37,164 nt of DNA from Bacteroidota bacterium. GTDB lineage: Bacteria > Bacteroidota > Bacteroidia > Chitinophagales > Chitinophagaceae. The number at the start of each line of letters is the position of its first letter. The stretch's first letter is position 1. The notes under the pieces were generated by a model that searched no databases, had not been told where the DNA came from, and saw only the letters and a list, made by a program, of their open reading frames with translations. Positions 15,475 through 18,242 of this stretch are shown here, one piece after another. Where the stretch lies: the NCBI GenBank assembly GCA_014190475.1, contig BJGL01000015.1, positions 1 through 37,164 on the forward strand. Direction: 5' to 3'. The position numbers and the translations under genes were made by a program.

Positions 15475-16584
15475 CTAGCGGCCCGCCTTAAGGACTTCTA
15501 CTACACGTTTCATTTCCTCCGTTGTTCCTACGCTCAACCGAAGCCAGGTGCTCTTTTCCTCGAAAGAACGAGCTCCTACTATTTGATGAGACTGTAAAAA
15601 GTTTGGTATCGGTTTTGAATAAGCAGCACCATCAAAATAAACAAAGCTGGTAACAGAGGGAATAAATGGAATTTTTAATTCAGCTAATCCTTGACAGAAA
15701 ATTTCTTTCGCTTTATGATTTTCAGCTTTGCAGAAAACAACAAATGCGTGATCGTCCATAGCAGCTAGTGCACCACGCATAGAAACTGCAGAGGGACCCG
15801 CGTTTGCCCAAGCTTGTAACTCGTTCAAACTTCGAATGAGAGAAGGTTGAGCTAGTAAATAGCCAACACGAGCACCCGCCATCCCGTATACTTTTGAAAA
15901 TGTTTTTGCAATAATCAAATTAGGCTGCTGGTTGACCAGATGAGCCAAGGAAGCTGTATCATAATAATCAGTGTAGGCCTCATCCACTAATACTATACAA
16001 GACTTGCAGGCTTGCTCAACAAACTTTTCCAACGTTTTTTTATCATGCGCCGTACCTGTTGGATTATTAGGGTTACATAAATAAACCAGACGCGTTTCAC
16101 TATTAATACTAGCCAGCATTCGCTCCAGGTCATTGTGCTTTGTAGCAGTTAATGGAATCAACTGCGTGGCTAAACCCATTTTTCGTGCAGCGGGCATCCA
16201 TAATTTAAAAGTAGGCTCTGAAGCTATCACATGCCCTTTTTGATAAGAGGCCCATAGGCAAACCAACCCCAATAATTCAGAAGAACCCGCCCCCAAGGTA
16301 ATATGCTCACGCGTATGATTAGTAAGCAAACCTATTCGTTCGCGTAATAACCCATTCATGTCCCATTGATAGCGATTGGAAATAGCTACTGCCTCTTGCA
16401 TAGCTGTACGGGCCAGGGGCGAAGGACCATGTGGGTTTTCATTGGCACGTAAAATAATAGCTCCCGTGTTATCGGGTAATGACGCACTGGCAACCCTACT
16501 CAATGGAGCCCCCATCAAATCGCGAGCCATTGAAAAAGAAAGCATTGCAAATGCAGATTTCTTTAATAACTGTCTTCGTTGCAT
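15475..16584 (-). CDS. Exported HisC-like class I/II aminotransferase
   Basis: 369 residues from ATG 16584. The leader MQRRQLLKKSAFAMLSFSMA has twin arginines and a modest hydrophobic stretch, so Tat export of the folded PLP enzyme is likely. The fold-type I core shows RANENPHGPS (46-55), the NPNNPTG motif (171-177), D201-EAY for the PLP ring nitrogen, Schiff-base lysine K231 in TFSKVYGMAGARVGY, and R239. These are the features of the histidinol-phosphate aminotransferase group, but no his genes are near and export argues against histidine synthesis. It diverges, with 55 nt between starts, from the haem-copper fusion gene. Substrate unknown; a periplasmic amino acid or amine transaminase is the simplest inference. 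Confidence 0.83.
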   Translation of the reverse strand: MQRRQLLKKSAFAMLSFSMARDLMGAPLSRVASASLPDNTGAIILRANENPHGPSPLARTAMQEAVAISNRYQWDMNGLLRERIGLLTNHTREHITLGAGSSELLGLVCLWASYQKGHVIASEPTFKLWMPAARKMGLATQLIPLTATKHNDLERMLASINSETRLVYLCNPNNPTGTAHDKKTLEKFVEQACKSCIVLVDEAYTDYYDTASLAHLVNQQPNLIIAKTFSKVYGMAGARVGYLLAQPSLIRSLNELQAWANAGPSAVSMRGALAAMDDHAFVVFCKAENHKAKEIFCQGLAELKIPFIPSVTSFVYFDGAAYSKPIPNFLQSHQIVGARSFEEKSTWLRLSVGTTEEMKRVVEVLKAGR

Positions 16585-16604
16585 ATTCCCGGTATTAGTA
16601 GCCT

Positions 16605-16622
16605 TAAATTTAGTTAACTTTC
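16605..16622. promoter_or_regulatory. Paired TAnnTTTG-like boxes in 55-nt divergent region
   Basis: TAAATTTA (16605-16612), read on the minus strand, ends 20 nt before the aminotransferase ATG. TAACTTTC (16615-16622), on the plus strand, ends 17 nt before the ATG at 16640. Each has one mismatch from TAnnTTTG. If both work, the two genes share a very compact divergent promoter. Confidence 0.25.
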
Positions 16623-16639
16623 CAGAAGAAATTAAACCG

Positions 16640-17995
16640 ATGATTTTTGAAAAATTCAGAAACAGAATAAGCGCAGTATCAACCATACTAGTGGTAGTGA
16701 TAGGAGCAGGACTTTTGAGTAGTCCAGGATGTAAAAAAGCAGAGGGGCGTGCAGACTTCGAGTTGATCCAGGACGAGATTCTAACTCCTAATTGTGCATT
16801 TAGCGGATGTCATGCTTCAACCAACGACGCAACGTATGCGCAGCATAAATTAGTGCTTTCTGCAGGTAGCAGTTATGATGCCTTGATTAATAAATCACCT
16901 CAGCATCCCACCGCGCTAAGTAATGGGTGGCTATTGGTAAAACCGGGAGAAGTAGACAAGAGTTTTCTATTTCATAAAATAACCTGCGAATCAGGTCATC
17001 ATGCAGGCAATATTGGGGCTCCTATGCCTATGGGTGGCAAAGTACTCAGCCGAGGTCAAGTAGAATTTATCAAAAGATGGATCATTGCGGGCGCCAGCAA
17101 AACCAGTTCAGCAGTAGATGATGCAATTTTAAAAGACAGTGCCGCCTGCCAGTTGACAGTTGAACCACTTCCCCCTCCTGCACCCGGCACAGGATTTCAA
17201 ATGACCATCGACCCATTTGAAATTCCCAAAAATTTTGAACGCGAAATCTTTGTAAGAAAAAATACGCCGAATAGTGATACGTTGTTTGTAAATCGAATTC
17301 AACTTAGAGGAGCTTCAAATAGTCACCACTTTGTAGCTTATACATTTAGAAATGAAAATTTACTTCCGCCACTCAATACACTGAGAGATTTACGCGATCC
17401 AGTAACAGGTGTATTAAATCAATCAACGGTCCTACAAATGCAGAATCACATCTTTCTGGGAGGAGGCACCGATGTAAACACAGATGTTACATTACCTGCA
17501 GGAACTGCAATTAAGATCAAACCGAATCTTCCGATTGACCTGAACTCGCATTACTTCAACTTCACGAATTTGGTATTACAAGGTAGGAATTATGTGAACT
17601 TTTATACGGTTCCACGTTCGTCAGTACAATATGAAGTAAAGATGCTTGATTTAAATAATCTTGAAATTTATATCCCCCCTTTTACGCGGAGAACCATCTC
17701 CAAAAACTTTACATTCCCCACCCTTACCCGCGTTGTAATGCTGACTTCGCATTTTCATAAGTACGGGGAAAAATTTGTAATAAAGATTTTTGGTGGCGCT
17801 CGCAATGGTGAAATCATATATACCAATACTGACTGGGAGCACCCCCTCGTAAAATCGTTTACAACACCGATCGTACTACAACCAGGAGAAGGACTTACCT
17901 CAGAAGTAACTTACTATAATACCAGTTCAGTGGCCGTTGGATTTGGCCTGACCAGCCAGGACGAAATGAATATCATCTTTGGCTATTACTATTAA
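16640..17995 (+). CDS. CX4CH cytochrome fused to PHM/DBH-like type II copper monooxygenase domain
   Basis: 451 residues from ATG 16640. A hydrophobic leader ([18 protein letters not shown]) ends in a likely lipid-attached C31. Residues 40-150 form a cytochrome-c-like unit with the non-standard haem motif C52-AFSG-C57-H58, PMPMGG (129-133) offering an axial Met, and a closing [10 protein letters not shown] helix. Residues about 185-451 match copper type II ascorbate-dependent monooxygenases: SHHFVAY with H229/H230, H304 in LNSHYFN, H371/H373 in SHFHKYG, and M443 in [12 protein letters not shown]. These equal the PHM set (H107, H108, H172, H242, H244, M314), and the H373-M443 interval of 70 is the same as in PHM. 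It should hydroxylate an unknown exported substrate. The dehydratase gene follows after 4 nt. Confidence 0.8.
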
Positions 17996-17999
17996 TAGT

Positions 18000-18242
18000 A
18001 TGTGGACAGAAATCAATAATCAGCTATATCAAAAATTTGTCTTCCCCGATTTTAAGGAGGCGTTTGATTTTATGACTCGTGTTGCACTGGTAGCTGAAAA
18101 AATGGATCATCACCCTACATGGACCAATGTTTGGAATACCGTGGAGATATGGTTGAGTACGCATGATGCTGGGAATATAATCACGGAGAAAGACAAAGAG
18201 CTTGCTAGTGCAATTGACCGTCTATTGAAGAATAGTAATTAA
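18000..18242 (+). CDS. Pterin-4a-carbinolamine dehydratase (PCD/DCoH family)
   Basis: 80 residues from ATG 18000. The family signature is intact: E33-xxx-H37-H38-P39, W45, H55 and D65 ([10 protein letters not shown] ... [17 protein letters not shown]-like spacing). The enzyme dehydrates 4a-hydroxytetrahydrobiopterin, recycling the cofactor of aromatic amino acid hydroxylases, and some members have other roles. It is short for the family (about 95-105) because the N-terminal strand is reduced. An in-frame start at 17979 would overlap the previous gene. No pterin-dependent hydroxylase is visible in the window, so its place between a copper monooxygenase and an exported aminotransferase is unexplained. 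Confidence 0.88.

Follow-up and report, generated by a model that had tools for sequence, protein, structure and literature searches.

A single gene in a Bacteroidota genome joins a cytochrome c-like part to a copper part of the PHM/DBH type, and this cytochrome-copper fusion is a recurrent design in the sampled Bacteroidota, not peculiar to the stretch of DNA in which it was noticed. That stretch, called the window throughout, is 37,164 nucleotides long. The encoded protein is read here, with moderate confidence, as a self-sufficient, extracytoplasmic two-copper monooxygenase that would draw single electrons from its own cytochrome. The architecture, the fold of the copper part, and the conservation of its ligands are supported by computation; heme and copper loading, the direction of electron flow, and catalysis are what we infer.

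Animals make amidated hormones and noradrenaline with PHM and DBH, two textbook copper enzymes. Pfam contains bacterial Cu2_monoox_C members, some of them with cytochrome domains, and their presence in bacteria is therefore not claimed as new. A search of open-licence PMC papers found no paper on a cytochrome-PHM fusion, and a table in one metalloprotein review lists PHM and DBH under eukaryotes only (PMC7435645).

The Fused Gene

The open reading frame spans exactly positions 16640-17995 of the plus strand, starts with ATG, and encodes 451 amino acids followed by a stop codon. A longer reading in the same frame begins with TTG at 16376; the ATG is favored because the starts of relatives fall near it. 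Translation places C31, C52, C57, H58, H229, H230, H304, H371, H373, and M443 exactly where the initial annotation had put them. Its central observation, a heme motif fused to a full set of copper ligands in one chain, was confirmed, and conservation argues against chance.

A scan of genome contigs confirmed 416 relatives, of which the best 80 were analyzed as close relatives. They are mostly Bacteroidota, including Spirosoma, Fibrisoma, Flectobacillus, Telluribacter, and Pseudarcicella strains, with four labeled uncultured bacterium and one Sphingomonadales. A wider set of 46 relatives comprises matches with E < 1e-30 and more than 400 amino acids, leaving out weaker or shorter matches and the window's own copies. 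The features of the gene are listed below with their conservation in the best 80 of 416 (close) and the 46 wider relatives.

16640-17995, plus strand: whole gene, cytochrome c-like part and PHM/DBH-like copper part (open reading frame and conservation)
16640-16732, plus strand: hydrophobic N-terminus up to Cys31, lipoprotein-like (Cys31 in 77/77 covered close relatives)
16793-16813, plus strand: heme motif C52-AFSG-C57-H58, CX4CH (77/77 covered close relatives, spacing 4 in all)
16985-16987, plus strand: Cys116, proposed disulfide partner of Cys170 (co-occurrence in relatives)
17024-17026, plus strand: Met129 (MPMGG), probable second axial heme ligand (80/80 close, 42/46 wider)
17147-17149, plus strand: Cys170, proposed disulfide partner of Cys116 (co-occurrence in relatives)
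17192-17992, plus strand: PHM/DBH-like copper part, residues 185-451 (model strands from residue 185, Foldseek, and Cu2_monoox_C in relatives)
17324-17329, plus strand: H229-H230, CuH-type ligands (80/80 and 46/46; in register with alignment A3 and, via A3, with DBH)
17549-17551, plus strand: H304 (NSHY), third CuH-type ligand (80/80 and 46/46)
17750-17758, plus strand: H371-F-H373, CuM-type ligands (80/80 and 46/46)
17966-17968, plus strand: M443 (DEM), CuM-type ligand (79/79 and 46/46)

Three of the close relatives (L064, L081, and L139) have no letter at C31, C52, C57, and H58, which are otherwise kept in 77 of 77, and one (L062) is cut before M443. The frame of L139, from Flectobacillus sp. 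BAB-3569, is interrupted. The heme Cys/Cys/His and the six copper ligands occur together in all 46 wider relatives.

The dN/dS ratio is 0.029 between the gene and L060 (at a dS of 2.4, near saturation) and 0.055 for the pair L060/L061, with saturated dS in the other eight pairs; these values indicate that purifying selection acts on the fused gene. A search of a plasmid collection gave no match.

Fold and Ligands of the Copper Part

An AlphaFold2 model of the whole protein, built from 53 sequences, has a mean pLDDT of 82.5 and a pTM of 0.76. The pLDDT lies below 50 in residues 1-3, 22-35, and 51-56, the last of which is the heme loop, modeled without heme. In a Foldseek search of the PDB, hits 1-31 were all human DBH or PHM: DBH gave the best matches, at E = 2.6e-13 and 4.8e-13, and PHM followed at E = 1.9e-11 to 1.8e-8 with TM-scores of 0.57-0.62 by target length. 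The PHM/DBH-like copper core proposed from the letters of the gene is thus upheld at the level of fold. After hit 31 came a putative hydrolase and PNGase F-like and PRD1 capsid structures, among others, with TM-scores below 0.3. The PNGase F-like and capsid hits are consistent with a passage in PMC8812541 that assigns a double jelly-roll to PHM, PNGase F, and viral capsid proteins alike. A viral structure library returned low TM-scores only. A single-sequence PDB search with the protein found nothing relevant, and the PDB sequence matches obtained from the protein and from alignments A1, A2, and A4 (nicking endonucleases, FoxE, and a synthetase) were weak and were set aside as irrelevant.

A bridge to DBH at the sequence level runs through alignment A3, which holds 14 sequences of a second Bacteroidota type (type-B). 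A3, the only one of the alignments to reach DBH by sequence, matched human DBH at 1.5e-7 with VHH, VHY, HxH, and EM in register. Alignment A2 in turn matched A3 with 98.9% probability over residues 35-447 (hhalign), with the heme CH, HH, HY, HxH, and DEM in register. These two registers together join the window protein to DBH. At E <= 0.01, the A3 members match Cu2_monoox_C (14 of 14), Por_Secre_tail (11), and Cu2_monooxygen (8), and on the heme side Cytochrome_CBB3 (5), Haem_bd (5), and Cytochrom_C (1).

The profile search suggested in the initial annotation gave a mixed outcome. Of the relatives, 49 of 53 match Cu2_monoox_C at E <= 0.01. In the protein itself, Cu2_monoox_C is the only Pfam match, sub-threshold at 17.9 bits against a cut-off of 23 over residues 364-451, and the N-terminal domain Cu2_monooxygen is unmatched. 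In a six-frame search of the window's own genome, Cu2_monoox_C reaches 23.1 bits and has a single match, the fused gene.

The six-ligand set (HH and H; HxH and M) is complete, as first described, and is kept in all covered relatives. The gap of 70 residues between H373 and M443 also stands, but its equality with the gap in PHM is not diagnostic alone: a gap of 70 occurs in 79 of the 80 close relatives (one row has 44) and in 19/46 of the wider set. The copper part contains no cysteine in 80 of 81 sequences, the query included.

The residues R240, N316, and Y318 of PHM, which we take to be its anchors for the substrate carboxylate, have as counterparts T369 (79/80), I445 (79/79), and F447 (79/79), located by spacing from HxH and M; all three positions vary in the 46-member wider set. 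With these anchors absent, peptide amidation is unlikely, and the substrate is probably not a peptidyl-glycine.

N-Terminus and Heme Part

The chain begins with a hydrophobic stretch, predicted as a helix at residues 3-25 in the model, upstream of Cys31. The initial description of the chain as lipoprotein-like fits this arrangement and the conservation of the cysteine, but the protein's own residues before Cys31 (SSPGC) fit the usual lipobox poorly. The fused protein is probably membrane-anchored through a lipid on Cys31.

The CX4CH motif is present as described. CX4CH is a known heme spacing that occurs twice in cytochrome c3, according to an excerpt of PMC10454114, and both it and CX3CH are treated as heme motifs in a pangenome study (PMC10734462). 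Among the 46 wider relatives, the spacing is CX4CH in 24, CX2CH in 17, and CX3CH in 5. That one invariant Cys/Cys/His site shifts among three spacings argues for working heme sites. Met129 is probably the second axial ligand, a role assigned from its conservation. In four of the wider relatives (L013, L019, L020, and L025), this methionine is exchanged for Cys (three) or Ala (one), and these proteins possibly have an altered heme ligand.

Of the 80 close relatives, 51 have both Cys116 and Cys170, 28 have neither, and one (L124) is discordant, a count that kinship inflates. The pair is proposed to form a disulfide linking the cytochrome part and the linker.

Modeled alone, the cytochrome part is helical with a pLDDT of 85.6. 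This model has no significant match in the PDB, where the top hit is cytochrome c-551 at E = 5.5 and a probability of 0.01, and the cytochrome part of the window protein has no Pfam match at E = 0.1. Its relatives give scattered weak Pfam matches, most commonly to fatty acid cis/trans isomerase (4 of 53). In NCBIfam, residues 48-148 weakly match TIGR03806, the SO2930 family diheme c-type cytochrome, at E = 1e-5 and 24.9 bits against a cut-off of 313.3; 18 of the 53 alignment members match it at E <= 0.01. It is the sequence, through the motif, the conserved methionine, and the weak TIGR03806 match, that carries the cytochrome assignment.

Distribution and Recurrence of the Fusion

Within the window's taxonomic family, 195 genomes yielded three with a match at 1e-5: that of the window, that of a sister species (70% identity), and one whose match is weak and partial. 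Matches occur in 76 of 198 genomes of the order and 28 of 296 in the phylum sample, two samples that overlap and in which some matches cover the cytochrome part only.

Cu2_monoox_C was found at 32 places in 29 of the 296 sampled Bacteroidota genomes and in none of 14 control genomes. With frames read from stop to stop, an in-frame CX2-4CH motif lies upstream at 31 of these 32 places, the window included. The 31 comprise 28 of the 29 loci L140-L168 (all save L162), G538:C22 (L180), G621:C13 (L058), and the window; L162, the only other place, starts at a contig end, with its cytochrome side out of view.

At locus L007 (G338:C24, minus strand), the cytochrome and copper halves are adjacent genes on the same strand, with 29 bases from the stop codon of one to the likely ATG of the other. 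Both genes are lipoprotein-like, and the second has its own hydrophobic stretch and cysteine. This split, a single case, supports together with the fusions a working partnership of the two halves.

Other arrangements were also seen. Cytochrome-only frames exist (e.g., L050-L056 and L059), and L057:1339-2805 encodes a CX4CH cytochrome part followed by a repeat-rich stretch that looks beta-propeller-like by eye. The fused gene has tandem copies within a few kilobases in G214:C13, G227:C3, and G277:C65, near L008, L010, and L011.

Genomic Surroundings and Host Respiration

The window carries the following neighbors.

Further upstream in the window: two 3-keto-disaccharide hydrolases and a GFO/IDH/MocA protein
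11674: CCP_MauG diheme peroxidase
12873: alpha-fucosidase
Just upstream of the fused gene: Aminotran_1_2 aminotransferase
18000-18240, plus strand: Pterin_4a (pterin carbinolamine dehydratase), a few bases past the stop codon of the fused gene
18253: Aminotran_5

The upstream aminotransferase, in its longest reading (15475-16686, minus strand), overlaps the start of the fused gene; with an internal start the two would no longer overlap. Immediate neighbors vary between clades (80 loci compared, ten neighbor proteins domain-tested), and no neighbor, in these loci or in the window, identifies the substrate. A pterin-linked role, considered for the Pterin_4a gene at 18000, was dropped because the downstream neighbor varies among relatives. 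In 6 of the 80 loci, a lycopene-cyclase cluster is found nearby. L067, L069, L070, and L071 each have a same-strand, lipoprotein-like gene immediately upstream of the fused one. SprB repeats are matched in the L071 copy, and CVSCH is present in the copy of L003, whose contig equals that of L069 in length. This upstream gene possibly encodes a further electron carrier.

The window's own genome contains two Cytochrom_C_asm matches, one of them in an 839-amino-acid frame. COX1 was not found in this genome (98.7% complete, 1.9 Mb assembly), and cytochrome bd was not found in it or in the sister genome G155. COX1 is present in G155, for which reason its absence from the window's genome is probably an assembly gap.

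Proposed Mechanism and Alternative Readings

In the proposed mechanism, the chain would be exported and probably lipid-anchored at Cys31, and one c-type heme would be loaded via C52, C57, H58, and Met129. The C-terminal PHM/DBH-type module would hold two separate single-copper sites, CuH (H229, H230, and H304) and CuM (H371, H373, and M443). A cytochrome c pool or a membrane donor would reduce the heme, which would pass electrons to the coppers one at a time in place of ascorbate; CuM would then bind O2, and a C-H bond of the substrate would be hydroxylated. In PHM and DBH, each copper supplies one electron, and a one-electron heme donor therefore suits their chemistry.

Several lines of evidence favor this heme-fed monooxygenase: the Foldseek matches to DBH and PHM, the invariant copper ligands, the bridge to DBH, the invariant heme Cys/Cys/His, the weak TIGR03806 match, the Cytochrome_CBB3 and Haem_bd matches of A3, the 31 of 32 fusions, the split at L007, the Cytochrom_C_asm matches, and purifying selection. 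It is weakened by a cytochrome part that lacks a significant structural match or a Pfam match, by a protein score below the Cu2_monoox_C cut-off, by the replacement of the axial methionine in 4/46, by a genome in which neither COX1 nor cytochrome bd was found, and by the lack of a substrate-telling neighbor.

Electrons might instead flow in reverse, with the copper part oxidizing a substrate and the heme passing the electrons on into the respiratory chain, in the manner of cytochrome-linked dehydrogenases. A heme domain alone leaves the direction unfixed, and a chain of cytochromes is conceivable given the upstream lipoprotein-like gene in four neighbor sets, the SprB repeats of its L071 copy, and the CVSCH of the L003 copy. 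The ligands that are kept, however, are those of O2-activating, electron-consuming monooxygenases, which makes reversed flow unlikely.

It is quite unlikely that the copper part is non-catalytic and serves in copper storage, sensing, or buffering, with the heme as a redox switch. No activity is known for the fused protein, the copper part is free of cysteine in 80 of 81 sequences, unlike the disulfide-rich PHM and DBH, and the presumed PHM substrate anchors are replaced. Nevertheless, the invariance of all six ligands of both sites in the 80 close and 46 wider relatives goes beyond the needs of storage, and the window neighbors are not copper-resistance genes.

An LPMO-like oxygenase directed at polysaccharides or glycosides, with a built-in cytochrome, is very improbable. 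The 80 loci include an AXE1 esterase cluster (6), GH43 and GH3 (2), a sugar transporter cluster (8), and a xylose-isomerase-like gene (5), with one member of each cluster domain-tested, and the window holds the alpha-fucosidase and two 3-keto-disaccharide hydrolases, but such genes are common in Bacteroidota, the counts stand without a background rate, 11 loci adjoin genes that look housekeeping-like by eye, and LPMOs use a different, histidine-brace site.

Relation to Known Systems and Significance

The window protein, read as a heme-fed monooxygenase, resembles PHM (e.g., 1phm, 3mic, and 8dsl) in fold, at rounded E-values of 1e-8 to 2e-11 and the TM-scores by PHM length given above, and in its six-ligand pattern. 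It differs in its low identity of about 14-17%, in its fused heme part, in the exchanged anchor positions, and in a copper part that is cysteine-free in 80 of 81 sequences. Human DBH (4zel) is its best structure match and is reached by sequence through the type-B relatives, with HH, HY, HxH, and EM aligned, at an identity of 14-15%. DBH is not known to contain a c-type heme and carries a DOMON domain. The type-B proteins share the order of parts and have heme and copper ligands in register with those of the window protein, but they have CX2CH in 14 of 14, a longer chain, an HxH-to-Met gap of about 81, and Por_Secre_tail in 11 of 14. The SO2930 family (TIGR03806) resembles the cytochrome part weakly and is diheme, whereas the window protein has one heme motif and scores far below the curated cut-off.

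A broader reading, put forward tentatively and with considerable doubt, is that a large bacterial branch of the PHM/DBH family consists of self-sufficient heme-copper monooxygenases with cytochrome c as physiological reductant; the survey behind it covered Bacteroidota. This may be the older arrangement, with ascorbate an animal replacement. A bacterial form of this kind, recurrent and carrying its own electron donor, would enlarge the PHM/DBH family and would offer a bacterial model for how electrons reach two distant coppers. It would also raise the question of what such bacteria hydroxylate outside the cytoplasm.
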